From contig JAPONM010000027.1 in NCBI GenBank assembly GCA_026713925.1, positions 62,001-126,000 on the forward strand: 64,000 nucleotides of DNA, in the 5' to 3' direction. Every line of letters starts with the position of its first letter. Position 1 is the stretch's first letter. Both the position numbers and the translations under genes were made by a program. Below are positions 35,875 to 53,068 of the stretch, in pieces. A model generated the notes under the pieces. The model saw nothing but the letters and a program-made list of their open reading frames with translations. It was not told the DNA's origin and searched no databases. This stretch comes from Gammaproteobacteria bacterium (GTDB taxonomy: Bacteria > Pseudomonadota > Gammaproteobacteria > UBA4575).

Positions 35875-36122
35875 TTGCTTGTTTTTGGCACTTTGCTTTT
35901 GGTCAATGTCCAGAAGATCATCAGATAATTTTGCTGAGCAAGATTTAATTCGTTCGGTAATTCAATCAAGTATCAGGAATACGGCTGGTTAAACAGCACA
36001 ATACAGTATATTTGGGTTTCTTATGCTATTTTCCAAGGCTCAGTTCTGTATAAAGGTTGGAAACTGACCTATACTATTTACTGGTCGGTGGGAAAGATTT
36101 GCAAGTGTCACCGGAGGTTGAA

Positions 36123-36749
36123 ATGCAGCAGAAAAGTACATCCAAACCTAAATCCCAGGCTGCCGAACAGTTCGACCAGGAAACGTTGAACCGCTGGTTT
36201 GATGAAAGACTGGAGCAAAAGCTTCGTGAGCGCGAAGAGGCCAAGACCCCGCAATTGTCACTGATTGCCACCAAGGGTACTTTGGATATGGCATATCCGC
36301 CATTTATTCTTGCATCGACTGCAGCTGCACTGGGCTGGGATGTTTCCTGCTTTTTTACTTTTTACGGGTTAAATCTGTTAAAAAAAGAGCTCAACCTTGC
36401 AGTGTCTCCGTTGGGAAATCCAGCAATGCCAATGAAAATGCCGGTTGGCCCTGATTGGTTCAAAAATGTGGAATGGAATATTCCGAATGCTCTGAGCAGC
36501 AACATCCCTGGCTTTGAAAGGTTTGCTACTTCGATGATGAAACGGACTATTGAGGAAAAAGGGGTCGCGAGTATTCAGGAACTGCGCACCTTGTCTATTG
36601 AGGCAGAGGTGAAGATGATTGGCTGCGAAATGACAGCTGATTTGTTTGGCTATGAGAAAAGCGAATTCATAGATGAGATGTCAGACTGGGTTGGTGCGGC
36701 TTCATTCCTGTCCGCTGCACAGGATTCCAACATCTGCTTGTTTATTTGA
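36123..36749 (+). CDS. DsrE2-type sulfur carrier (DsrE/DsrF/DrsH-like family)
   Basis: A 208-residue DsrE2-family protein. It starts at an ATG five bases after GGAGG; a longer upstream frame is disfavoured. A charged N-terminal coiled stretch (residues ~15-40) precedes the conserved core SLIATKGTLDMAYPPFILAS, FFTFYGLNLLKK and EVKMIGCEMTADLFG, whose Cys is the likely persulfide carrier, and then FIDEMSDWVGAASFL. In sulfur oxidisers DsrE2 works with rhodanese and TusA to move sulfane sulfur in the cytoplasm; some are membrane-attached, and here residues around 60-75 are hydrophobic. It opens the sulfur-oxidation island. Confidence 0.85.
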   Translation: MQQKSTSKPKSQAAEQFDQETLNRWFDERLEQKLREREEAKTPQLSLIATKGTLDMAYPPFILASTAAALGWDVSCFFTFYGLNLLKKELNLAVSPLGNPAMPMKMPVGPDWFKNVEWNIPNALSSNIPGFERFATSMMKRTIEEKGVASIQELRTLSIEAEVKMIGCEMTADLFGYEKSEFIDEMSDWVGAASFLSAAQDSNICLFI

Positions 36750-37442: not shown

Positions 37443-38726
37443 TTAACTAAACATTTCCGCAGTCATGTTGTTGAACCAGCTGTAGGCATACTGCACTTCA
37501 CGTCTAAGAGCTTCAGGCGTTGCATCGGAAGGAGTAAGGCCTCCACTGATTTTATCAATTTTCGAGCGGTCATCTGCAAGCTTGTATACGGCTACTACTG
37601 AAATTCCATAATCTGGCGCAATGATACTGTAGCAGGCATTTGCGTAGGAATTGAGGCCCGGCTCCTTGTCCTGCAGCTGATTGACTATGGCCATTGCACA
37701 TACTTTTGCCTCCGTACCTGCTGCAAACCCTGATTTCGGCATGCCGGTTATTATCCCAGCATCACCAATAACATGAATATCCTTGTGTTTCTTCGATTCA
37801 AACGTACCCAAGTCTACAGGACACCAGCCAGATTCATCCGTCAAATCCGCATCCTGAGCAATCTGTGCCGCTTTCTGGGGCGGAATTATGTTGGCAACGG
37901 CAACCTTGTACTCATCAAAGTCAGTATTTACCTTCATCGCACTGGGATCAACCGAGGTCACACCACCGCCTGTATCAGCACCCGCAACCCACTCGATCAT
38001 ATCGCCGTAAACATTCTTGTAGCCCTGCATGAACAAGCCTTGCTTAGAGAACTTGTCCTTGGCATCAAGAATCAATATTTTGGATTTTGGCTTGTGATGT
38101 TTAAAGTAGTGTGCAATCTGTGCTGCACGCTCATAGGGTCCGGGAGGGCAGCGAAATGGATTTCCGGGAGGTGCCAGTAACACGACGCCGCCATCATCCA
38201 TTGATTCCAGCTGCTTTCTCAAAAGGGCTGTTTGCGGGCCAGCAATCCACGCGTGCGGCATGACCTCAGCGGCTGCTTCATCATACCCTTCAATTGCTTC
38301 CCACTTGAGGGCGATGCCAGGTGACATGACCAGCCGGTCATATTCAAGAGTAGCGCCTCCTGCTGTAGTGACCTTGTGGGCAACAGGGTCAATCGCGACA
38401 GCTTTATCCTGTACGACCTTGATCCCATGATCAGCAAATTTGTCGTAACCAAACTTGATCGTCGAAATATCTCGGTCACCACCAATAACTTCATTACTCA
38501 TAAAGCAGGTGTGATGGTGAGGTTTGGCTTCAATAACAGTGACATCGATGGATGAGTCACCCTTGGCAATATACTTGGCAGCAATCGTACCACCTACACC
38601 GCCACCAATTACAACGACTTTCTTTTTTGCAGACATGGCAATATGTGGAAAGCCAAACCCTGCAGTGCTCAGCGCTAATGTGCTGCCTGAGGCCTTAAGA
38701 AATTTCCTTCTGGTAAATCTTGACAT
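37443..38726 (-). CDS. fccB: Flavocytochrome c sulfide dehydrogenase, flavoprotein subunit
   Basis: A 427-residue FccB. It oxidises sulfide to sulfur in the periplasm and passes electrons to FccA. A Tat signal (TRRKFLKAS) starts it. The FAD fold begins at [12 protein letters not shown]. Cysteines match the known enzyme: Cys74 in [15 protein letters not shown] (FAD attachment), and Cys193 (NPFRCPPGP) with Cys365 ([13 protein letters not shown]) as the redox disulfide. AGGAGG precedes the ATG. It follows fccA by 31 bases; the NapC-like gene upstream may be in the same transcript. Confidence 0.96.
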
Positions 38727-38757: not shown

Positions 38758-39423
38758 TTATTCCTGATTCGCATAAAACTGAATGAGTTCAGCAACCGAA
38801 TTCTCACCATGCATTTCGTGCACTTCTTTCATTTGCTTTTTCATCTTTTTAGGCATGGCCCGGTCACCACTGAAAAAATCAGCCATCGTATATTCAAGGT
38901 AGGGAATCCATTGTCCAGCTAGCACGCCAGCGTCATCTTCAGCTGAACGGCCTCCGTCTTCATGACATTTTTCACAGTGATTTTCATGAATAGATGCACC
39001 GGCCTGGGCCTGTTCTACATTGACATCCTGTTTTTGGGCTTTAAATGGCAATGCCGCAAAGTACTTGGCAATGGCCTTGATTTCTGCCTCTGTATAGCCT
39101 TTGGCAATTCGGTCCATGACGGTGGAGGTTCTTGCAAAGTACTCCACATCCTCAAGGTCCGGATCCGCCTCTATTACAGCATCGACCTTATCTTCATCAT
39201 TGTCATATTTGTATGCCAGCATGGCACCTATCAAGTAAATTTCTGACATGCCTGAAATTGTAGGGGTTGCAGGCCCATCACTAATACCACTGGGCCCATG
39301 GCAGCCAAGGCATGTGTCGGAAAGCATAGATGGGCTTGCCATTTCTGATGCCAAGGAAATATTAAATGACAGCAAGCCAAATACACTTAGCAAAAGTGTC
39401 TGGCGGGCAATTGTATACAACAT
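38758..39423 (-). CDS. fccA: Flavocytochrome c sulfide dehydrogenase, dihaem cytochrome subunit
   Basis: A 221-residue dihaem c-type cytochrome with a Sec signal peptide (cleavage near SLAS) and two haem sites, CLGCH (38-42) and CEKCH (150-154), each in a class I cytochrome c domain, as in FccA. The later PYLEYTMADFFSGDRAMPKKM supplies a Met ligand region. The start at 39423 follows CAGGAGG; an upstream Met is not used. It accepts electrons from FccB and would donate to a periplasmic carrier or to the NapC-like protein next door. Confidence 0.94.
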   Translation of the reverse strand: MLYTIARQTLLLSVFGLLSFNISLASEMASPSMLSDTCLGCHGPSGISDGPATPTISGMSEIYLIGAMLAYKYDNDEDKVDAVIEADPDLEDVEYFARTSTVMDRIAKGYTEAEIKAIAKYFAALPFKAQKQDVNVEQAQAGASIHENHCEKCHEDGGRSAEDDAGVLAGQWIPYLEYTMADFFSGDRAMPKKMKKQMKEVHEMHGENSVAELIQFYANQE

Positions 39424-39554
39424 TCTTATCCTCCTGTCCCGGATATGCATGGCTTGTATTGTTGTGTAAAAGGCACAGAACCTTGGGTGCAGTCACATAT
39501 AGTATCCAATTCGTCCGAATACTAACATAATTGATTGCTGGCTTTTAGATCTTC

Positions 39555-40203: not shown

Positions 40204-41352
40204 ATGAAGCATGCTGAAGTTATTCAGGTACTTGCAGTCTTATTAATCAGCTATTTTTTCTGTTTTGCTGCGTTAGCCAGCACAGAACAATCAAGCCAAA
40301 TTGATACAGCAGATTCTGTGAAGGCTGAGGTATCGGCAACGGAAGATAAGATTCCTGTTGACGAGCCCAGTTCAACATCGCAGGCAGACCCAGTTGATGC
40401 CGTAATCCAGAACACTCCGGACCCTGAATCTGCTAATAGCAGCGATGACAAGGAGCTAGTTTTAAAGCAGCCATCCTCTTCACCGCTTCAAGACCAGCCA
40501 GCTGCGGCATCTGGCTCATATATGAACTTCTTTAACCCCATGTCCATGTTAAATCCTGCGTTTTACATGAGCATGATGTATCCGATGATGGGGATGATGG
40601 GTTCTATGATGAATCCTATGGGGATGATGGGATCAATGTTCAACTATCCGGTGGATGTAATGACGCACCCGTGGGCCATGGACATGATGATGCGTTCAAT
40701 GGACCCCCATCTTATTTTCGGGATGTTCGGTCAGGCCAGCCAGGCCTATAAGGAGGGCAAGGTTCCAGACCGTCTTCCGGTTGTAACAATCCCTGGTTTT
40801 CCAACCCAAAACTATCAGAACTGGCCTAAAAATAAAGTGTCACCTGGGGTATCCCGTGAGGCCAAAAAAAATGCATTTCAAACTGCAATGGCAGTGAGCC
40901 CGCTTTCTATGCGTGACATGATCAGCATCATGACAGACAAAATTCCTGTTGATGAAGATGTTTCTTGGGACGATGCCGTTGAAGCGATGAAGCTTCGTGC
41001 CAATGAAGTTAATTTCAAGTTTGTAGGTTCAAGTCCACTGTGGAAGGAAATTGAAGCGGTTACCGGTCAGCCTTCGGCAAGGGTTGAAATGTTTCGTTTC
41101 TGTGATGCAGCGGTTGCACGCCAGATTTTAGACGAAGTTCCTGAGTTTATTATATTCCTGCCATGTCAGATTTCATTGATTGAGGATGGAGATGGCAAGC
41201 TCTGGGTGATGACAATGGACTGGAGTGTCGAATGGATGGATTTTGCCCAAAATCCTAATTCGCACCTGAGTAAAGACTTGCGCGAAGGTGCACTCAAAAT
41301 ACGTGAATCTATTTCCTACATCATGGAAGGTGCTGCAACCGGCGAATTTTAA
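40204..41352 (+). CDS. Exported Met-rich repeat protein with C-terminal DUF302 domain
   Basis: A 382-residue protein. It has a signal-like N-terminus (hydrophobic residues 8-25), then an acidic, Ser/Asp/Pro-rich linker to about residue 100, then a block of roughly 60 residues dominated by Met, Gly, Asn and Pro (MSMLNPAFYMSMMYPMMGMM and MMNPMGMMGSMF). After another linker it ends in a DUF302 domain (about residues 245-350: VSWDDAVEAMKLRANE, VEMFRFCDAAVAR, FLPCQISLIEDGDG). DUF302 proteins occur near sulfur-oxidation genes but lack a proven role. The Met-rich block is shared with the next gene and echoes the protein at 45475-46068. Confidence 0.75.
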   Translation: MKHAEVIQVLAVLLISYFFCFAALASTEQSSQIDTADSVKAEVSATEDKIPVDEPSSTSQADPVDAVIQNTPDPESANSSDDKELVLKQPSSSPLQDQPAAASGSYMNFFNPMSMLNPAFYMSMMYPMMGMMGSMMNPMGMMGSMFNYPVDVMTHPWAMDMMMRSMDPHLIFGMFGQASQAYKEGKVPDRLPVVTIPGFPTQNYQNWPKNKVSPGVSREAKKNAFQTAMAVSPLSMRDMISIMTDKIPVDEDVSWDDAVEAMKLRANEVNFKFVGSSPLWKEIEAVTGQPSARVEMFRFCDAAVARQILDEVPEFIIFLPCQISLIEDGDGKLWVMTMDWSVEWMDFAQNPNSHLSKDLREGALKIRESISYIMEGAATGEF

Positions 41353-41390
41353 ACAACCTTTATAAATTTTAACTAGCCAGAAGGTAAATT

Positions 41391-42137
41391 ATGTCATTCA
41401 AAAACGAGATCATTCAAAAGGCAATGATTGCCATTTTTCTTTTTACTGCATGCGTCGTCAGCATCCAGGCTGAGGAGGCTCAGCAGACTCAAGCTGCACC
41501 ACCAGCTACGACTAACGCGTTGCAAAAATCAATGGATCCCAATGTCTGGATGCAAATGATGACATTGATGATGGACCCACAAAATTCGTCATCTATGGCA
41601 AGTTGTGCGCTTTGTCATGAAGCTCAAGATGTGGCCAGATACCAATCAACCTACGGGCCTATGATGGATGCAATGTGGCAGCCGTATAAGGCAATGATGA
41701 ACCCACATATGATGAGTACCATGATGAATCCTAATACTTATATGAATCCCATGGGTTCCATGATGAACCCTGCCATGTATATGAACATGATGGGACCGAT
41801 GATGGGGATGATGGGACCGATGATGGGTTCCATGATGAATCCTATGGGAATGATGAACCCTATGGGTTCCATGATGAACCCTGCCATGTACATGAACATG
41901 ATGTATCCGATGATGGGGATGATGGGACCGATGATGGGTTCCATGATGAATCCTATGGGAATGATGAACCCTATGGGTTCCATGATGAATCCTATGGGGA
42001 TGATGAATCCGATGCATGGGTATAATTCGCCTGGTGGGCAGGCAATGGATCCGCAACAACAAAAGCAATGGTTTGATCAGTGGGGAGATATGATGAAGAA
42101 TTTTCTACCCAACTCTGGTTCACAGCCTGATCAGTAA
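41391..42137 (+). CDS. Exported Met/Asn/Pro-rich repeat protein with one CxxCH
   Basis: A 248-residue protein with a signal peptide (cleavage near IQAEE). Residues ~47-65 contain MDPNVWMQMMTLMMDPQ, followed by a single haem-like motif CALCHEAQDVARYQ. From about residue 100 to 225 the sequence is built of MMNPMG, MMGPMMG and MNPAMYMNMM units; roughly 40 percent Met by eye. A 37-residue unit is exactly duplicated at DNA level. The C-terminus (QQQKQWFDQWGDMMKNFLPN) is amphipathic. It lies 38 bases after the DUF302 gene and shares its Met-rich block. Function unknown: metal (Cu/Ag) binding, haem-linked electron relay, or a sulfur-globule coat are conceivable. Confidence 0.75.
   Translation: MSFKNEIIQKAMIAIFLFTACVVSIQAEEAQQTQAAPPATTNALQKSMDPNVWMQMMTLMMDPQNSSSMASCALCHEAQDVARYQSTYGPMMDAMWQPYKAMMNPHMMSTMMNPNTYMNPMGSMMNPAMYMNMMGPMMGMMGPMMGSMMNPMGMMNPMGSMMNPAMYMNMMYPMMGMMGPMMGSMMNPMGMMNPMGSMMNPMGMMNPMHGYNSPGGQAMDPQQQKQWFDQWGDMMKNFLPNSGSQPDQ
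41766..41987 (+). repeat. 111-bp tandem duplication in the Met-rich gene
   Basis: Two head-to-tail copies (41766-41876 and 41877-41987) encode the same 37-residue block, starting NPAMYMNMM and ending NPMGSMM. They differ at only a few bases, for example GGACC versus TATCC after the first MNMM, indicating recent duplication or homogenisation. Smaller MMNPMG and MMGPMMG units repeat inside each copy. Confidence 0.9.
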
Positions 42138-42154
42138 AACCTGGAGGTTACTTG

Positions 42155-42190
42155 GCCTGTCTTGTGGCAAGCTTGTTGCCCCAGACAGGC
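42155..42190 (+). terminator. Extended hairpin after the Met-rich gene
   Basis: Outer stem GCCTGTCT/AGACAGGC and inner stem GGCAA/TTGCC around GCTTG form one long hairpin 18 bases after the stop. No T tract follows, so it may act as an mRNA 3' stabiliser rather than a classical terminator. Confidence 0.55.
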
Positions 42191-42598
42191 TTGGGTGTCG
42201 CATCGTCAGTGTAAGTGCTGGTGACAAGATTCTGAGACCCGCAAACTTGTAAGCATATCTAGAATATTTTGGTAAGTGTTTAATTCTGCTTTATTGTTGT
42301 TTGGGTAGCTTGCTGGCCCTTGCCCAGCAAGTACCTGTCTTTGAATAATGGTTTATACTTTTTCAGAGTTGAAGATGATTTCGTTGCATGGGGCACAGGG
42401 CAGTAGTACAGCCTGCATTCTATGGCCACGTGGGTCCAGTTATGCATAAAGAGAACTATCTCAAAATCTTATGACCCTTAGTGTTTCGTTAAGAAAACAT
42501 TTGAGTATAATTCCAAATGATACTGGCTCATGATTTAGTGAATTTACACAATGGACATTGTATAATTTACTGCTTTGATCGATCCGAGACTGGGCGCC
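42191..42598. other. Intergenic region with a second hairpin, ahead of the YeeE/YedE gene
   Basis: No gene is supported in these 408 bases. A hairpin CTTGCTGG/CCAGCAAG lies at 42309-42331, inside the longer echo GGTAGCTTGCTGG...CCAGCAAGTACC. The final ~100 bases are AT-rich and should contain the promoter of the transporter gene, although no clear -35/-10 pair stands out. Confidence 0.45.
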
Positions 42599-43744
42599 AT
42601 GGAAGAATTATCTAACCTTCATCTAGTAGCATTGCTGGGCTTCGTTATTGCTGTAATATTCGGATTTATTGGTAACAAAACCCATTTTTGCTCAATGGGC
42701 GCAATCAGTGACGTTATCAATATGGGCTCGAAAGGGCGCATGGGTGCTTGGTTTCTAGCTATTGGCGTTGCAATCCTTGGTGCACAGTTTTTATTTCTCC
42801 AAGGACTGGTAGATTTGAATGCATCGGTTTACCTTTCACCAAATTTATACATACTCAGTTACATCCTTGGCGGACTTTTATTCGGTATTGGCATGACACT
42901 GGCCGCTGGCTGCGGGCAGAGAAACCTGATCAGATTGGGCGGTGGGAACCTGAAAGCTCTGGTTGTCATCTTGGTTTTGGGGATTACTGCCTACATGACC
43001 ATGCGCGGGCTTCTTGCGTTAATACGTCTGAACTGGGTCTATTCAGTTAATGCGGACCTGACGAACCAAGGTATCAATGACCAAAGTCTGGTCAGTTACA
43101 TAGGAGCTCTATTGAATTTGGAAAATACGGTTTGGCTGAGGAGAATAGGGGGGTTTGCAATCGCCGCAGGCTTTATTGCCTATGCCTTTAAACACAAGGA
43201 ATTCAGAAGAAGTTTCGATAACATTCTCGCAGGAATTGTGATCGGTGCATGCGTGATTGCTGCCTGGTATGTGACCGGCTATCTTGGCCAAGACGATTTC
43301 GATCCAGTTACGCCACAAGGCATGGCTTTTATCGGTCCTACTGGTAATGCTATCAGCTATTTAATGACTTTTACGGGTGCTCAAATTAACTTTGGAATTG
43401 CTGTTGCCTTGGGCATGATTGTAGGTTCCTTCCTCTATGCCGTAGCTTCTAACTCGTTCAGAATTGAAACATTCAGCAACAGGTCCGAAATGATCAGCCA
43501 TTTAATCGGAGCTGTACTAATGGGCTTTGGAGGTGTTCTCTCCTTCGGGTGTACAATAGGGCAGGGAGTTACAGGTATGTCGACTTTGGCTATGGGATCG
43601 ATTCTAGCCCTAAGTTCAATTATTTTTGGAAGCGCGCTGACAATGAAAGTCCAGTACCATATCCTGGATGAAAAGGGATTTTTCGATGCTTTGAGTATGT
43701 CATTGCTGGAATTGGTGCAACCCTGGAAGAAGCAAACCACATAG
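42599..43744 (+). CDS. YeeE/YedE-family (TsuA-like) sulfur transport protein
   Basis: A 381-residue polytopic membrane protein of the YeeE/YedE family, which includes the thiosulfate importer TsuA. The three conserved cysteines that line the TsuA path are present: Cys31 in KTHFCSMGAISDV, Cys105 in AAGCGQRNLIRLGGG and Cys318 in LSFGCTIGQGVTG. About nine hydrophobic segments are visible. A TTG at 42575 would add eight residues; the ATG at 42599 is preferred. It converges with soxZ. It may import thiosulfate or a related sulfur compound into the cytoplasm, or export one. Confidence 0.88.
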   Translation: MEELSNLHLVALLGFVIAVIFGFIGNKTHFCSMGAISDVINMGSKGRMGAWFLAIGVAILGAQFLFLQGLVDLNASVYLSPNLYILSYILGGLLFGIGMTLAAGCGQRNLIRLGGGNLKALVVILVLGITAYMTMRGLLALIRLNWVYSVNADLTNQGINDQSLVSYIGALLNLENTVWLRRIGGFAIAAGFIAYAFKHKEFRRSFDNILAGIVIGACVIAAWYVTGYLGQDDFDPVTPQGMAFIGPTGNAISYLMTFTGAQINFGIAVALGMIVGSFLYAVASNSFRIETFSNRSEMISHLIGAVLMGFGGVLSFGCTIGQGVTGMSTLAMGSILALSSIIFGSALTMKVQYHILDEKGFFDALSMSLLELVQPWKKQTT

Positions 43745-43770
43745 ATTTTGCGCCAAGAGAGCGAGCGATC

Positions 43771-44091
43771 TTACTTGACAACTGCTTTGCCTGTTCCTGA
43801 CTTACCCAGGTTATCGGTCCAGCTGATTTCTATTGTATCTCCAGGCTTGCCACCTTCAAACTCAAACGACCAATAAGGGTTCTTCGATATCCCAGTGCCC
43901 CATTCGGCTGAAATAATGACTTCGCCATTCAGTTCAGCCTGAACGTTCTTGATAAAGTGTGCCGGAACCAATTCCCCGGTATCTGCATCTTTTCGGCTGC
44001 CTGACTCCATGGGGTGGTACATAATGGTTTTTACTACTGTAATCCCATCTTTTACCTTCGCTTTAATTTTCATTTCTTTGGGCATTGCCAT
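43771..44091 (-). CDS. soxZ: Sulfur-oxidation carrier subunit SoxZ
   Basis: A 106-residue SoxZ. With SoxY it forms the carrier that holds sulfur intermediates during thiosulfate oxidation. Conserved elements include VKTIMYHPMESGSRKD, VPAHFIKNVQAELNG and the C-terminal SWTDNLGKSGTGKAVVK. There is no signal peptide, as expected, because SoxZ is exported with SoxY by the Tat route. It lies 19 bases downstream of soxY. No soxAX, soxB or soxCD gene is in the window. Confidence 0.95.
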   Translation of the reverse strand: MAMPKEMKIKAKVKDGITVVKTIMYHPMESGSRKDADTGELVPAHFIKNVQAELNGEVIISAEWGTGISKNPYWSFEFEGGKPGDTIEISWTDNLGKSGTGKAVVK

Positions 44092-44110
44092 GATCCTTTA
44101 CTTTAGATTT

Positions 44111-44563
44111 TTAGACGCAACCGCCTGCAGTTACCTTCACGGCACTTTTTGTGCTGTATAACTTGCCATCGGCCTTAACAATTGCCACGACATGTGAACT
44201 TTCACGCAGTTTAATGCGTGTCGAGACAAAAGGTTTTGACTTGCCGTGAAAATAAAATCTTGAAATCCAAGGTCTGGGGTTCTTATCCCCTAAAATGCTG
44301 ATCCATTCTACATTTTCCAAGTCTGTTGATACTTTGACTGGAACAGTGGCCCCATTTTCTGCGATCTCAGGTGCTTGAAGCGAAACATGCCCATCAAGCA
44401 ATTCCTGGTCACCTATCAGACCTTTCAGGGCCGGCAGGTATTCAGTTTCATCAAATGCTGCCGACGGCCATGCTGCCCATGTTTGAGAAAACAGTCCAGC
44501 ACCCAAGAAAAAGGTACCTGAGTAAAGACTACGCTGGATAAAGATTCTTCTTGAAATAGCCAT
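44111..44563 (-). CDS. soxY: Sulfur-oxidation carrier subunit SoxY
   Basis: A 150-residue SoxY with a Tat-type leader (SRRIFIQRSLYSG) and the substrate-carrying cysteine on a C-terminal swinging arm. The arm ends TAGGCV followed by the stop, whereas most SoxY end GGCGG; the cysteine is kept but the final residues differ. The start at 44563 places the twin arginine at residues 5-6; the longer frame upstream is unlikely. Upstream palindromes at 44647-44691 may be operators shared with the divergent SirB-like gene. Confidence 0.93.
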   Translation of the reverse strand: MAISRRIFIQRSLYSGTFFLGAGLFSQTWAAWPSAAFDETEYLPALKGLIGDQELLDGHVSLQAPEIAENGATVPVKVSTDLENVEWISILGDKNPRPWISRFYFHGKSKPFVSTRIKLRESSHVVAIVKADGKLYSTKSAVKVTAGGCV

Positions 44564-44646
44564 TGATTCACCTTCAGTTAAGTTTAGTCTCATACATCAG
44601 CCAGGTAGCATGCTGATGTAACAATCTGTTTGATTAATTAGACAGT

Positions 44647-44691
44647 ATTTTACTATGTAAAATTCCAAATATGCTAATGTACGGCGTACAT
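44647..44691. promoter_or_regulatory. Pair of palindromes between soxY and the SirB-like gene
   Basis: Two perfect dyads with three-base centres: ATTTTAC-TAT-GTAAAAT (44647-44663) and ATGTAC-GGC-GTACAT (44677-44691). They lie 84-128 bases upstream of soxY within a 333-bp divergent gap that otherwise holds nothing I can identify. The shape fits dimeric repressor or activator sites, for example an ArsR-type sulfur sensor, but no regulator gene is adjacent. Confidence 0.5.
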
Positions 44692-44896
44692 CTGTATTTT
44701 GCTGTATTTTTCCACGCCCAGCCTGTCAGCAGTATCGAATGCATAAAATGTGCTGCATGCAAGGGTTTCAGATAAGGTGCACCAGTCCGGCATGGAGAAA
44801 AGTCCGAGTAAGAACAGCAACTTACTTCAATCCAGTATGTATTCTTGAGCGAGTCGTTTATACAATTTACTGCCAACATGCAGGAGTCATGATGAT

Positions 44897-45277
44897 ATGA
44901 CAAGCTATTTTGTTCTGTTGCTCATTCATGTCAGCACAGTCTTTATTTCGATTGTCGGATTCTTTATCCGAGGAGTCTGGATGATACAAACATCCCCTCG
45001 GCTGCAACAGCGCTGGGTCAAGATAGCGCCTCATATAAATGATACTGTCCTGCTTCTTTCGGGAATTGTGCTTGTGATTTTCACATCCCAATATCCAGGT
45101 CCTACTGCTTGGTTGAATGCAAAAATTATTGCCTTGATAGCCTATATTGTGCTGGGGACGATCGCGATTAACCGTGGAAAAACTCAGGGAGTGAAAATCA
45201 CTGCATGGGTTCTGGCTTTAGCAACCTATGCCTATATCTTAATGGTTGCATACAGTAAGTCGGCGCTTCCCATTTAG
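44897..45277 (+). CDS. SirB2-family membrane protein
   Basis: A 126-residue integral membrane protein with four hydrophobic helices (about residues 5-27, 47-66, 75-93 and 99-118). The pattern LLIHVSTVFISIVGFFIRGVWM, then a basic loop and WVKIAPHINDTVLLLSGIVL, with YAYILMVAYSK at the end, matches the SirB family. Conserved His and Arg residues in the first two helices are consistent with haem or copper association, but the function of SirB is not established. It starts directly at the ATG after AGTCATGAT and is divergent from soxYZ. Confidence 0.8.
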   Translation: MTSYFVLLLIHVSTVFISIVGFFIRGVWMIQTSPRLQQRWVKIAPHINDTVLLLSGIVLVIFTSQYPGPTAWLNAKIIALIAYIVLGTIAINRGKTQGVKITAWVLALATYAYILMVAYSKSALPI

Positions 45278-45369
45278 CGAAGCTATTGAAGGGGACTATT
45301 ATTGTGAAGAAGTAGTGCCTTGCCAGTATGTGCTGCTAAAAAGCGATAACTTTCATAGCCTGTAATAAA

Positions 45370-45397
45370 TAAGCCCCGATCACAGGATCAGGGCTTA
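45370..45397 (-). terminator. Hairpin terminator downstream of the MNP-repeat gene
   Basis: Twelve-base arms TAAGCCCCGATC and GATCAGGGCTTA (one C-A mismatch) with loop ACAG. On the minus strand the hairpin is followed by TTTATTA, so it probably ends transcription from the MNP-repeat gene; it may also serve the convergent SirB-like gene. Confidence 0.6.
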
Positions 45398-45401
45398 AGG
45401 T

Positions 45402-45445
45402 AAGGTATAGCTTCTACTCCAGTTCCTTGGAGTCAACTATACCTT
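45402..45445. other. Nested stem-loop in the 3' region of the MNP-repeat gene
   Basis: An outer 9-bp stem AAGGTATAG/CTATACCTT encloses a second 6-bp stem ACTCCA/TGGAGT with loop GTTCCT. It lies between the stop of the MNP-repeat gene (45475) and the terminator hairpin, so the minus-strand mRNA would carry two consecutive structures. The role is unknown; mRNA stabilisation is possible. Confidence 0.5.
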
Positions 45446-45474
45446 GGGGCCTCCTGCAATTGTATCCTTACAAT

Positions 45475-46068
45475 TTACTCCTTGATTTCGGATGCATCTG
45501 CTACAGCTGGCGCATAGAAAGACTTGAACATGTTTGTATACGAATTTGGATTGAACATCCATGCCGTGCTTTCCTGCTGCCACTTAGGATCCATAGCCGA
45601 GTAAACAGGCTGGTAAAACTGCGGATTCATCGCTGCAGTCATCCACTGTGTATAAAATGCAGGGTTCATGTACGAATACATGAACTGGTAAGTTTGCGGG
45701 TTCATAGAAGCTGTCATCCAGTTCATATATACCTGCGGGTTCATGAACTGTGCCATGGCGTTCATCAATTTGGCAGGATTACTGAAATTTGCGGTCCAGA
45801 TACTCCACTGCTTAGGGTCCATAGAGCAGTTCATCATCGCCTGAGTAGTAGCGGGGTTGTTGACTGCTATCATGAATTCGTTGAATTTAACCGGATCAGC
45901 CATGGTTGCTGCCATTATCTCTGGGTCCGTGAATGCCGGATGAACTGTGCAGGACGAGACTTGGCCTTGTGAAGAACTGTCGGTTTTGGATAAATCACCA
46001 AAAACTGGTGTAATACTAAGTGCCAATAAGCTAGCTATGGCTGCGTAGGTGAGCTTGGATAGTTTCAT
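45475..46068 (-). CDS. Exported Met/Asn/Pro/Tyr repeat protein
   Basis: A 197-residue protein with a Sec signal peptide (MKLSKLTYAAIASLLALS start, cleavage near VFG). After a Cys-containing N-terminal part (SSCTVHPAF, MMNCSMDP) it consists of tandem units of 12-13 residues: MNPQVYMNWMTAS, MNPQTYQFMYSY, MNPAFYTQWMTAA, MNPQFYQPVYSA, MDPKWQQESTAW and FNPNSYTNMF, alternating to give a ~25-residue superrepeat. The same module opens the protein at 41391 (MDPNVWMQMM). No family is recognised. Tyr/Asn/Pro/Met composition recalls structural coat proteins. It is flanked by soxYZ/SirB-like genes and by structured RNA. Confidence 0.75.
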   Translation of the reverse strand: MKLSKLTYAAIASLLALSITPVFGDLSKTDSSSQGQVSSCTVHPAFTDPEIMAATMADPVKFNEFMIAVNNPATTQAMMNCSMDPKQWSIWTANFSNPAKLMNAMAQFMNPQVYMNWMTASMNPQTYQFMYSYMNPAFYTQWMTAAMNPQFYQPVYSAMDPKWQQESTAWMFNPNSYTNMFKSFYAPAVADASEIKE

Positions 46069-48976: not shown

Positions 48977-50215
48977 GTGTCAAACTGTATGTTCTCTGTA
49001 CTCTTTCATTTAATATATATATCGAACTTGTTCCAAGCCAAGCACAATAAAGAGCAGCAAGACACCGGTCAGGATGTTTCCTGCCCAGCATTTTCAGATT
49101 ACCCTGCTGAGCACAAACACCTTCATTTTCTTAATACTGTGCTACGTGATGTAGTTGAAAACCCAGGCTCTGAATCTCCATTTCTAGTACTGCTGAAAGA
49201 AATTGAATCCTTGACTTTGGCAGTTACAAGTGCCCTTTTTATCACTAAAGAATCTGGTGAAAATGAGCTTGTCGCTATTACGGATGAAATGGATCTAGAT
49301 ATGCTAAGTGATTACTTAAGTCGTACCACTATCAACTCAAACCACAGTGTATTACATACTCACAGCCAAACATCTGAAAGCAAATACAATGTAAAGGTAA
49401 TTCAGTTGGGCGATAACAGTCAGAATCTTTATGGAACGCTTATACTCAAGATTCCAAAATCAGTTTCTGACAAGTTGTCTTCATCTGAAATGAAGTCAAT
49501 AAAGCATGCATTGAGTGGGATTTTGTCAAGTTCACAGTACCTGGATGTGAGCAAGCGGCTCGCCCTGCATGAAGAGAGAGCATTAATTGCAAGAGAGCTG
49601 CACGATTCCCTTGCACAATCTCTCTCATACTTAAAAATTCAAGTGAGCCGTCTTCAGGCACTACTGAAAATTAGCCCTCTAACAAGTGAAGGAAACGTCA
49701 ATGCAATAAATGGTATTGTTGAAGAATTGCGAACAAATCTTAATGTCTCTTATAAACAGTTAAGGGAACTGATCACTACATTCAGATTAGCACTGAAAAG
49801 CCGTGATCTAGCACATGCACTGGAAGACTCTGTAGAGGAATTTGAAAATCGCAGTAGTGTAGCAGTCAGTTTAGATAATCGACTATCACGTATGGACCTT
49901 GCGGTTGATGAGGAAATACATGTGCTGCAGATAATTCGTGAGGCAATCTCAAATGTCGTAAGGCATTCACAAGCTAGTCGAGCTGAAGTGTCCCTGAACA
50001 TTTTAAGTCGTGGATTAATATGTATTAGCATTGATGATGATGGTATAGGCACGAAAAACATGCAGGTTAGGACACATCGTCATGGGTTGATTATCATGCA
50101 GCAGCGGGCACACGAACTAGGAGGAAAATTCCGCGTGGAAACCAGTCAGCTTGGAGGAACATGTATAACTGTGACTTTTCATACAAAAAACAAAAAGAAT
50201 ATCCGTCGGACTTAG
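48977..50215 (+). CDS. NarX-type sensor histidine kinase, apparently cytoplasmic
   Basis: A protein of up to 412 residues. Residues ~50-185 look like a GAF-type sensory domain; a HisKA_3 dimerisation domain follows with the phospho-acceptor His209 in ARELHDSLAQSLSYLKIQ, then a HATPase domain with SNVVRHSQAS (N box) and DDDGIG (G1 box). This is the NarX/DesK subfamily. No convincing transmembrane pair is seen, so it probably senses a cytoplasmic signal. GTG at 48977 or ATG at 48989 may start it. It lies 12 bases before the response regulator gene and is divergent from the GcvT-like gene. Confidence 0.88.
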   Translation: MSNCMFSVLFHLIYISNLFQAKHNKEQQDTGQDVSCPAFSDYPAEHKHLHFLNTVLRDVVENPGSESPFLVLLKEIESLTLAVTSALFITKESGENELVAITDEMDLDMLSDYLSRTTINSNHSVLHTHSQTSESKYNVKVIQLGDNSQNLYGTLILKIPKSVSDKLSSSEMKSIKHALSGILSSSQYLDVSKRLALHEERALIARELHDSLAQSLSYLKIQVSRLQALLKISPLTSEGNVNAINGIVEELRTNLNVSYKQLRELITTFRLALKSRDLAHALEDSVEEFENRSSVAVSLDNRLSRMDLAVDEEIHVLQIIREAISNVVRHSQASRAEVSLNILSRGLICISIDDDGIGTKNMQVRTHRHGLIIMQQRAHELGGKFRVETSQLGGTCITVTFHTKNKKNIRRT

Positions 50216-50227
50216 GTCAAGACTCTA

Positions 50228-50884
50228 ATGCAACCAGAATATTCTGTTCTGATCATTGATGATCATCCACTATTCCGCAAAGGTGTTGCGCAGCTCATTG
50301 ATGGTATGGGTAATGAGTTCAAGTTAGTTGGTGAAGCGCAATCCGGGCAGGAAGGTATTGAACTCGCATTGAAACACAAACCAAATCTGATCCTGCTAGA
50401 CCTGAATATGAATGGAATTGACGGTATTGAAACGCTGATCCAGTTAAAGAAGCATGGCGTGGAATCACGTGTGGTTGTATTGACTGTTTCCAATGCAGAA
50501 GAGGATCTAGTAGCCGCCCTGCGTAATGGTGCAGATGGATATCTGCTCAAGGACTTGGAACCGGAAGTATTGCAGTCAAAATTGCAAAGCGTCATGAGCG
50601 GTCGAATTGTACTTGATCAGAATTTATCCGAAAAACTTGCAAGCTCTGTCCGTAACGAACGAAATACCATCCCTGAAACGGAGAAAAGCGCATCGCTTAC
50701 ACACAGAGAAAAGGAAATTCTAGAATTAATTGCCAATGGTTGTAGCAATAAACTGATAGCACGCAAACTGGATATAAGTGATGGTACAGTAAAGGCTCAT
50801 GTAAAAAATCTGTTGCGAAAACTCAACGTCCATTCAAGGCTGGAAGCAGCTGTATGGGCCTTGAATCATGGATTTGGCAAGTAG
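50228..50884 (+). CDS. NarL/FixJ-family response regulator
   Basis: A 218-residue regulator. The receiver domain has the acidic pair IIDDHP, the phosphorylation site Asp58 in LLDLNM, and the conserved Thr and Lys (VVLTVS, YLLKD). A LuxR-type HTH follows (THREKEILELIANGCSNKLIARKLDISDGTVKAHVKNLLRKL). It pairs with the adjacent NarX-type kinase. Targets may include the genes on either side (GcvT-like, sarcosine oxidase), but no operator is evident. Confidence 0.93.
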   Translation: MQPEYSVLIIDDHPLFRKGVAQLIDGMGNEFKLVGEAQSGQEGIELALKHKPNLILLDLNMNGIDGIETLIQLKKHGVESRVVVLTVSNAEEDLVAALRNGADGYLLKDLEPEVLQSKLQSVMSGRIVLDQNLSEKLASSVRNERNTIPETEKSASLTHREKEILELIANGCSNKLIARKLDISDGTVKAHVKNLLRKLNVHSRLEAAVWALNHGFGK

Positions 50885-50950
50885 ACGAAAGCCTGTTCAA
50901 AGGCGTGGGCATGTTAAATAATATTTCCACGCATCAAGACAAATGTTTGG

Positions 50951-53068
50951 TTGGCTTGTGGGCTACACCTTGGCATTACATCTGTGCATGATCAAACCGG
51001 GATATTAAACAATCTAAAGCAGATTGTTTTTGAAATTGATTATTCAGGAAAATGGCTTTACATCAGCCTGTCATGGACAAGCCTGACAGGTTATTCAGTC
51101 GCTGAAACACTAGGGACTCATATTCTTGATTGCGTACACCCTTCTGATAGGTCTAGTGTTGAAGAGTATTTGCACAGTCTATATTTACATGGGGAAAGGG
51201 AAATAGAGCCAGTCGCAGCACGTTTTCTTTGCAAGAATGGCAGGCCAGCGTTTATGGTTCTGAGGGGCAACACTGCTTTCGTAGTTGATAAAAACAACGA
51301 TTCAAAAGGTGTTGTTGGTACACTTACCAACGTTACAGAAAGAATTCGCCAACATGAAGTACTGGAGGCAAAGTACCGGAGTTTATGTAATTTTGTCGAC
51401 AGGTTTTCCGGCATGTTATACAGATGCCGTAATGACCAGGAATTAACGATTGAATATGCGAGCACTGGATGCTTGGAGTTGACTGGTTACAGTCGCGAGC
51501 AATTAGTGGAAAAAAATGAGATCTCGTATGCAAGTATCATACACCCTGATGACCGCCAAAGAATTTTTGAAACCATTCAATATAAATTACATTCAGGAAA
51601 ACAGTACGAACTCACACACCGAATCATCACTGCAGCGGGTACAGAGCGGTGGGTTTTCAACAGCGGCAAGGGGAATTTCTCATCTAGTGGTGAATTACTA
51701 TCATTCCAAGGGTTGCTGTTTGACTTTGATCGACAGAAAAAATTTCAGGAACGCAGTCTGCAACAGTCGCTTTACGACCCGGATACGAGGCTTCTGAATC
51801 GAATTTTATTCATCGATCGTCTGGAACATTCAATTGAAAAAATTAAGTGTCGAAATGGTTATGCATTCACAGTACTACTACTGAGTATTGATCAATATTC
51901 CCAGTTGTTTAATAGCCTAGGTGTTCAGAGTATTGAGCTAGTGATCACAGAAATAGGTCAACGTATTATTGAAACACTGAATTACCCTGTTTCCCTATGC
52001 AGGTTGCAGGAGGACCGATTTGGGATTCTTCTGGATTCATCCCAGTACAGTATCAAAAATATTAATACAATCATGAACCAGATTCAGGAACAGGTTCAGA
52101 CTCCCTTAACTATAGAAGAAAATGAAGTATACGTTACTGCAAGCATCGGTGTAGTTGTTGGTAATCCAGACTATGATGACAAAGATAAAGTACTTGCAGA
52201 AGCCCAGAATGCATTAAGCCGGGCTATCAGCCTAGGTGGTGCGCGTTATGAAATGTCTGATTTGATTTCTCATGGCAAGGCTGCTTTACAGGCGCATATT
52301 GAAAAAGAACTCGAACAAGCACTAGAGCAAAATCAATTTCTTGTGCACTGGCAACCAATTGTCACTCTCAAAGACGGATTGCTGTCAGGACTCGAAGCTA
52401 GACTGGTTTGGCCGCATCCCATAAAGGGCCTGCTATATGCTGAACAGTTTGTACCTAATGCAGAAGAAACCCAACTGATTGCTCCCCTGTGGGAGTGGAT
52501 GATAAATGATGTATGCAGACAAATTGAGAAATGGAATACCCTGGTATCTAAAATTCAGGGTATATCATTAAATATACAGGTTACTGGAGCAACCTTGCTT
52601 GATGCCGATTTAATTTTCAGGCTGTGTGAAAAGCTCTTGCTGGTTAAACCTGGTTTATGCAACCTAGTGGTAGGTGTTTCTGAAAATGTATTAAGTCATG
52701 TCCCACGAACCACAAACAGTCTACTGAAACCTGCGCAAAAAAAAGATATCAAGCTACTATTAGATGGCTATGGGTACACTAAGACATCCCTGCCCCTTCT
52801 ACAGGATATGCCTATTGAATACGTCCGTTTAAGCCACTCAATTATAGATGATTGTGTGACAGATAATGGGAAATTTGTCCGTGCCATTGCTTCTCTCACT
52901 CATAATCTGGGTATAGAAATCGTGGCAAATGCAGTGCAGTCACAACAGCAACTGGAAATATTAAAAACTGCAAATATAGATTCAGCACAGGGAAATCATA
53001 TTTCGAAGCCCGTTTCTGAAGACGACGTTATCCAAATGCTTTCTCAGGTCGTTGCCTCAAAGAATTGA
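50951..53068 (+). CDS. PAS-PAS-GGDEF-EAL protein with both catalytic motifs degraded
   Basis: A protein of about 705 residues: two PAS domains (about residues 15-140 and 143-270), then GGDEF and EAL domains. The cyclase signature is QEDRF (353-357) in place of GGDEF, and the phosphodiesterase signature is E482-A483-R484 (GLEARLVW) in place of EAL; the DDFG segment is LDGYG. Both enzymatic activities are likely lost, leaving possible ligand-binding or protein-interaction roles. It follows the two-component pair in the same direction. The start is a weak TTG; a GTG at 50984 is also possible. Confidence 0.85.
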   Translation: MACGLHLGITSVHDQTGILNNLKQIVFEIDYSGKWLYISLSWTSLTGYSVAETLGTHILDCVHPSDRSSVEEYLHSLYLHGEREIEPVAARFLCKNGRPAFMVLRGNTAFVVDKNNDSKGVVGTLTNVTERIRQHEVLEAKYRSLCNFVDRFSGMLYRCRNDQELTIEYASTGCLELTGYSREQLVEKNEISYASIIHPDDRQRIFETIQYKLHSGKQYELTHRIITAAGTERWVFNSGKGNFSSSGELLSFQGLLFDFDRQKKFQERSLQQSLYDPDTRLLNRILFIDRLEHSIEKIKCRNGYAFTVLLLSIDQYSQLFNSLGVQSIELVITEIGQRIIETLNYPVSLCRLQEDRFGILLDSSQYSIKNINTIMNQIQEQVQTPLTIEENEVYVTASIGVVVGNPDYDDKDKVLAEAQNALSRAISLGGARYEMSDLISHGKAALQAHIEKELEQALEQNQFLVHWQPIVTLKDGLLSGLEARLVWPHPIKGLLYAEQFVPNAEETQLIAPLWEWMINDVCRQIEKWNTLVSKIQGISLNIQVTGATLLDADLIFRLCEKLLLVKPGLCNLVVGVSENVLSHVPRTTNSLLKPAQKKDIKLLLDGYGYTKTSLPLLQDMPIEYVRLSHSIIDDCVTDNGKFVRAIASLTHNLGIEIVANAVQSQQQLEILKTANIDSAQGNHISKPVSEDDVIQMLSQVVASKN

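Follow-up and report, generated by a model that had tools for sequence, protein, structure and literature searches.

A sulfur-linked, apparently undescribed three-gene cassette of Met-rich, exported-looking proteins in a gammaproteobacterium of the UBA4575 lineage

Analysis of a 64,000-nucleotide stretch from a gammaproteobacterium of the UBA4575 lineage (GCA_026713925.1, contig JAPONM010000027.1, positions 62,001 to 126,000 of the forward strand; the window hereafter) has revealed three genes, here called P1, P2 and P3, that encode Met-rich proteins within a sulfur-oxidation island. Their open reading frames, at 40204-41352 (+ strand, 382 residues), 41391-42137 (+ strand, 248 residues) and 45475-46068 (- strand, 197 residues), lie where an original prediction from the bare sequence had placed them, and all three are real genes that are conserved in relatives. 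The order of genes in the island is FccB, FccA, a NapC/NirT cytochrome, P1, P2, a YeeE-type transporter, SoxZ, SoxY, a SirB2-like protein and P3, with the genes for a DsrE2-like and a Tll0287-like protein immediately upstream. By eye, the N-termini of P1, P2 and P3 resemble Sec signals (e.g. ...SIQA-EE, ...AALA-ST and ...PVFG-D), as do those of the orthologues, and the three proteins are presumably exported to the periplasm.

P3 comprises a signal-like N-terminus and a tandem 13-residue helix repeat, a periodicity which, like the conserved haem motif of P2, had not featured in the original prediction. The array (residues 48-183; 45520-45927, - strand) contains eleven [N/D]P steps at residues 48, 58, 71, 84, 97, 110, 123, 135, 148, 160 and 173, with spacings of 10, 13, 13, 13, 13, 13, 12, 13, 12 and 13, and the 13-residue period spans the entire mature protein, as exemplified by 8 proline pairs at a lag of 13 vs. 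a mean of 1.1 in shuffled sequences (0 of 5000 shuffles reached 8). Among 35 members of the P3 family, each carrying 7 to 17 such steps, spacings of 13 (200 cases) and 12 (72 cases) are far the commonest, and the step most often found reads M-[N/D]-P-x-x-Y-x-x-[M/W]-M-x-A-x. An AlphaFold2 model of P3, built on a 35-row alignment, had a mean predicted local distance difference test score (pLDDT) of 77.7, rising to block means of 84-94 between residues 41 and 160, and displayed a single short helix per step, the helices of the mature part breaking at N/D-P; since a hydrophobic-moment test was non-significant for most of these helices, we do not claim clear amphipathicity for them. P3 also looks like its own transcription unit because an intrinsic-terminator-like hairpin with a T-rich tail (45370-45397, - strand) is positioned 78 bp downstream of its stop codon.

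The invariant columns of the 35-row alignment are Pro59, Pro72, Asn110, Pro111, Tyr114, Trp117, Pro124, Pro136, Trp142 and Pro149, and conservation by residue type is 0.84 for Trp, 0.82 for Pro and 0.68 for Met. Whereas Pro, Trp and Tyr are kept across the family, the Met positions of P3 are replaced by Leu, Ala, Ile, Phe or Thr; conserved Met positions of the kind that a Cu(I)/Ag(I) binder would use as ligands are thus not seen in P3, which counts against essential Met metal ligands, and the pattern fits a hydrophobic structural role better than fixed metal ligands. These data bear on one of the two mechanisms put forward in the original prediction, a Met-based Cu/Ag buffer. In a periplasmic Cu(I)/Ag(I) buffer of this type, Met clusters would bind soft metals and keep copper or its sulfide away from the haem and the Fcc enzymes. 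Met motifs of known periplasmic proteins do bind Cu(I), and Met accounts for 28% of mature P2, with many MxxM/MM clusters; however, besides the drift of the Met columns in P3, His is almost absent (P3 holds 1 His and 2 Cys), no copper gene was found among the annotated island genes in Pfam/NCBIfam matches, and the association of the family is with dsrA and sox genes. For P3, this buffer is therefore disfavored and the other mechanism proposed, that of a sulfur globule protein, fits better. In P1 and P2, the Met-dense parts may buffer Cu/Ag, but as an account of the genes as a whole we consider metal buffering rather improbable.

In P2, a signal-like N-terminus is followed by two 13-residue DP steps, a c-type haem attachment motif, a Met/Asn/Pro/Gly-rich tail and a conserved MDPxQ...W C-terminus. 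The haem motif, CALCH (residues 72-76; 41604-41618, + strand), takes the form CAxCH in each full-length orthologue found (variants CALCH, CAACH and CAKCH), with CxxCH invariant in the 7 aligned orthologues; those in relatives are 47-68% identical to P2. Since this exported-looking protein carries CxxCH in every full-length orthologue found, it is likely to bind haem as a small c-type protein with a Met-rich tail. One may envisage an electron-transfer module in which FccAB or the NapC-type protein would be the electron-exchange partner of P2, a working monohaem cytochrome scaffolded by P1 and P3. This proposal can draw on the invariant CxxCH of the P2 orthologues, which is also present in the counterpart from another class described below, and on FccA and the NapC-type cytochrome as neighbors. 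On the other hand, no cytochrome c family matches P2 credibly (no match in Pfam; in NCBIfam only SoxX and SorU with E 0.02-0.04, far below cut-off), and relatives of P3 mostly lack a P2-like neighbor, making a module of this type quite improbable in our judgment.

P1 consists of a signal-like N-terminus, an Asp/Glu/Ser-rich linker, a Met-rich N-P segment (about residues 106-170; 40519-40713, + strand), and a C-terminal half containing a DUF302 domain (residues 286-339; 41059-41220, + strand; PF03625, E 2e-10, 40.8 bits vs. a gathering score of 23). Orthologues in relatives are 54-70% identical to P1, with the C-terminal half strongly kept and two invariant cysteines, Cys300 (FCD) and Cys321 (PC); the Met-rich segment varies in length among orthologues and is missing from the relative in another class. 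AlphaFold2 gave a low-quality model of P1 (mean pLDDT 40.0), which was not used. Organisms that lack SoxCD tend to accumulate elemental sulfur (S0). In sox clusters without SoxCD, a DUF302 gene has been described between soxA and soxB (PMC5037610), and the corresponding 191-residue proteins of Acidithiobacillia resemble P1 by domain and in their sulfur-oxidation context, whereas P1 has in addition the linker and the Met-rich segment. In some members, runs of additional exported-looking Met/Asn/Pro-rich paralogues adjoin P1 and P2 (L068:1495-3400 and L074).

According to the original prediction, all three proteins share the module M-[N/D]-P-x-x-[Y/W]-M-x-[M/W]-M. This was upheld for P2 (3 exact copies) and P3 (1 exact copy) and only loosely for P1, which has no exact copy and a degenerate form, LNPAFYMSMM. 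Copies of the looser step M[ND]P number 14 in P2, 6 in P3 and 2 in P1, vs. shuffle means of 0.9, 0.2 and 0.3, respectively. In a profile comparison, residues 58-83 of P3 aligned to residues 49-74 of P2 (26 columns, probability 96.5%), a stretch of two repeat steps directly preceding the haem motif of P2.

The identities of the neighboring genes, as named in the original prediction, were borne out by Pfam/NCBIfam profile matches to the island proteins. They include fccB (37443-38726, - strand) and fccA (38758-39450, - strand) for flavocytochrome c sulfide dehydrogenase (FCSD), a NapC/NirT-type multihaem cytochrome gene oriented divergently from P1 (39555-40091, - strand; PF03264, E 5e-65), a gene for a YeeE/YedE-type sulfur transporter (42575-43744, + strand; Sulf_transp PF04143, E 1e-64), soxZ (43771-44091, - strand; TIGR04490, above cut-off) and soxY (44111-44593, - strand; TIGR04488, above cut-off). 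Upstream, the DsrE2-like gene (36057-36749, + strand; PF13686, E 3e-46) is adjoined by that of the Tll0287-like protein (PF11845, 36786-37358), which itself has a CxxCH motif (CVMCH). Adjoining the island at 48977-53068 are a HisKA_3 kinase and LuxR-type response regulator pair and then a PAS-GGDEF-EAL protein, all possible regulators.

The window genome also harbors dsrA and, on another contig (C22, L093:1195-2808), encodes MsrP and MsrQ, the periplasmic methionine sulfoxide reductase. In perchlorate reducers, a Met-rich exported peptide, MrpX, is served by MsrP, and P1-P3 are likewise Met-rich and exported-looking in a genome with MsrPQ. By this analogy, the three proteins would form a sacrificial Met pool that absorbs periplasmic oxidants and is recycled by MsrPQ. 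Unlike MrpX, however, P1-P3 are unlinked to msrPQ, which is widespread in any case, and they reside in a sulfur-oxidation context with a haem motif and a DUF302 domain among the partners; in addition, P3 keeps Pro and Trp better than Met, and the tie of the family is to sulfur oxidation. We regard this scheme as improbable.

Within the genus, P3 proteins are 68-74% identical, decreasing to about 50% across the family, and the block fcc-NapC-P1-P2-YeeE-soxZY-SirB2-P3 is syntenic in genus relatives (L024 and L026). In 6 of 8 genomes of the window's family, no more than about 4 kb separates P1 from the FCSD gene. FCSD itself is encoded by all 19 family genomes and P3 by only part of them, so that flavocytochrome c as such does not require P3 to function. 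Pattern scanning across 84,980 species genomes yielded 39 loci with P3 relatives, all in records named Gammaproteobacteria, Betaproteobacteria or unplaced Pseudomonadota, with hosts that include metagenome-assembled genomes, the Olavius algarvensis Gamma 3 symbiont, Thiobacillus, Hydrogenophilales and Gallionellaceae; a search for P3 on plasmids gave no match. Using TIGR02064, a profile that does not by itself separate oxidative from reductive DsrA, dsrA was called in 32 of the 35 genomes behind these loci vs. 119 of 369 in an even sample of the class (Fisher p about 2e-12, with related genomes counted that are not independent). SoxZ was found in two of the three P3-family genomes without dsrA; the remaining one, a metagenome-assembled genome, has neither (L060, genome G417; at 2.0 Mb perhaps incomplete). 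In the class sample, all 8 P3-positive genomes carry SoxZ (background 194 of 369) and 7 of the 8 carry dsrA. We consider the link of the P3 family to sulfur oxidation to be strong: its relatives are found in genomes with sulfur-oxidation genes rather than mainly in organisms devoid of them, in keeping with what the original prediction had surmised from the gene neighborhood.

Among the P3 relatives, several Thiobacillus/Hydrogenophilales/Gallionellaceae-type genomes display tandem pairs, in which the first gene is followed at a distance of about 130-190 bp by a divergent P3-like gene whose product ends in YRY (L048, L051, L052, L057 and L060). Another relative (G012:C1:1094131-1094610; L014, L020 and L044) is split across two reading frames, by a frameshift or as a decaying copy, and the copy in genome G017 (L022) contains two in-frame TAA codons. 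A FadL/TodX-like protein is encoded at L032:4009-5346, with a P3 relative about 2.6 kb away.

In a phylum-wide sample, one further P3-positive genome, G507, was found outside the Gammaproteobacteria, in another class of Pseudomonadota. Here, a single row (L099:196-9250) contains the genes for a 131-residue exported-looking CTACH protein with a Met-rich stretch, a protein with DP steps of 12-13 residues and a DUF302 protein, the last being 39.5% identical to P1 over 210 residues (E 5e-52; PF03625, 32.1 bits). About 5 kb upstream of this trio are homologues of YeeE and DsrE2, 47% and 48% identical to those of the window. No other finding argues as strongly for a joint function of P1, P2 and P3 as this recurrence, in another class, of the three protein types close to YeeE and DsrE2. 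Between the YeeE/DsrE2 homologues and the trio lie two genes for FadL/OMPP1-like outer-membrane proteins, a pair that may bear on the passage of hydrophobic sulfur across the outer membrane. A second P3 relative is located elsewhere in G507, on contig C4.

As for known families, searches with P2 and P3 identified none in Pfam, NCBIfam or the PDB that covers the repeat; the original prediction had likewise recognized no family outside one DUF302 domain. With the AlphaFold2 model of P3, Foldseek returned nothing under E 1 and VIA-align no Z >=2, flexible small domains being easily missed by such searches. In its design, the repeat resembles the STI1/DP domain (PF17830) of ubiquilin, HOP and Sgt2, in which short Met-rich helices with proline breaks form a hydrophobic groove (PMC8010706, PMC13083928): 1) STI1-HOP_DP matches occurred in 5 of 35 P3-family members (best E 2.2e-4), with none for P3 itself; 2) the sole PDB profile match was 2llw, the STI1 DP2 domain (E 0.098); 3) the G507 repeat protein (L095:937-1908) matched UBQLN1 (E 0.0015), STI1 (E 0.0025) and GerD (E 1.4e-7). 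In a control, none of 3 shuffles matched STI1 vs. 2 of 7 real members, both below cut-off. The P3 family thus shares with STI1/DP short Met-rich helices broken by N/D-P but differs in being bacterial and exported-looking, with 7-17 steps per array. A periplasmic chaperone of this type, with a groove for hydrophobic peptides instead of sulfur, could accommodate these matches; however, members examined singly scored 17.4-18.1 bits, short of the PF17830 gathering score of 29.1, no fold match was obtained with Foldseek or VIA-align, and a general chaperone role leaves the restriction to sulfur oxidizers unexplained. We assign such a peptide chaperone a rather small probability, and the designation of P3 as an STI1 domain was kept only as an analogy. 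The G507 repeat protein, with its helical DP repeats, also passed the cut-off of the GerD central core (PF17898; 31.9 vs. 29.5 bits), whereas P3 had no match to it; GerD functions in spore germination in Bacillota. DP-type helix repeats may be commoner in bacteria than annotated.

FccAB and SoxYZ produce zero-valent sulfur in the periplasm. The explanation that we tentatively favor, at somewhat less than even confidence, is that P1-P3 constitute a periplasmic cassette acting on this zero-valent sulfur, with the repeat protein P3 as its coat or binder. With its roughly 11 short tandem helices, which all begin at Asn/Asp-Pro and abound in Met, Tyr and Trp, P3 would most likely wrap or sit on hydrophobic elemental sulfur, either as a globule envelope or as a soluble S0 binder, while P2 (haem) and P1 (DUF302) would be held at the sulfur surface through their Met/Asn/Pro-rich parts and carry a redox or sulfur-transfer function. 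We infer both the binding of sulfur by P3 and this division of labor among the three proteins, and we hold the mechanism of sulfur handling with moderate confidence. In an extension that we deem unlikely, a Met-rich periplasmic fold resembling the groove of STI1/ubiquilin would grip S0 itself, thereby acting as a sulfur chaperone that conveys sulfur from FccAB/SoxYZ to partners of the P2/P1 type and on to DsrE2/rDsr, with the cassette having spread across classes of Pseudomonadota.

To our knowledge, sulfur globule envelope proteins have been well studied only in Allochromatium, and we found no literature on Met-rich globule proteins. In Allochromatium, Sgp proteins are exported and combine a hydrophobic, repetitive sequence with Pro residues at regular intervals; sgpD forms its own transcription unit, and SgpD is located on globules in vivo and described as almost confined to Chromatiaceae (PMC10386293). 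Compared by these described traits only, P3 is akin to SgpA-D of A. vinosum in looking exported, in its hydrophobic, repetitive sequence with Pro at regular intervals (11 [N/D]P steps at spacings of 10-13), in its rDsr-type host and in its apparently separate unit with a terminator-like hairpin, but it differs from them in its unit of repetition, a 13-residue helix step with N/D-P and an abundance of Met, Tyr and Trp. The identification of P3 as SgpD was dropped, given the near confinement of SgpD to Chromatiaceae and the lack of any Chromatiaceae-named record in the P3 scan.

Several observations weigh against a sulfur-coating or sulfur-binding cassette. The P3 family is found in only 7 of the 119 dsrA genomes of the class sample, so that sulfur storers do not generally require it. 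Outside the window's family and G507, a search for sulfur-gene neighbors around non-syntenic P3 relatives found none, with housekeeping genes in their place, although sgp genes also lie as scattered single genes. Moreover, hosts of the Thiobacillus type are not classic formers of periplasmic globules.

How solid or polymeric sulfur is held in the periplasm and fed to the enzymes that oxidize it is a long-standing question. P1-P3 represent a real, sulfur-linked protein family and three-gene cassette that is apparently undescribed. An exported-looking repeat family that tracks rDsr-type oxidizers, with haem and DUF302 partners, would provide concrete candidate genes for this process in other sulfur oxidizers, as well as a candidate role for DUF302, a domain already noted in sox clusters.

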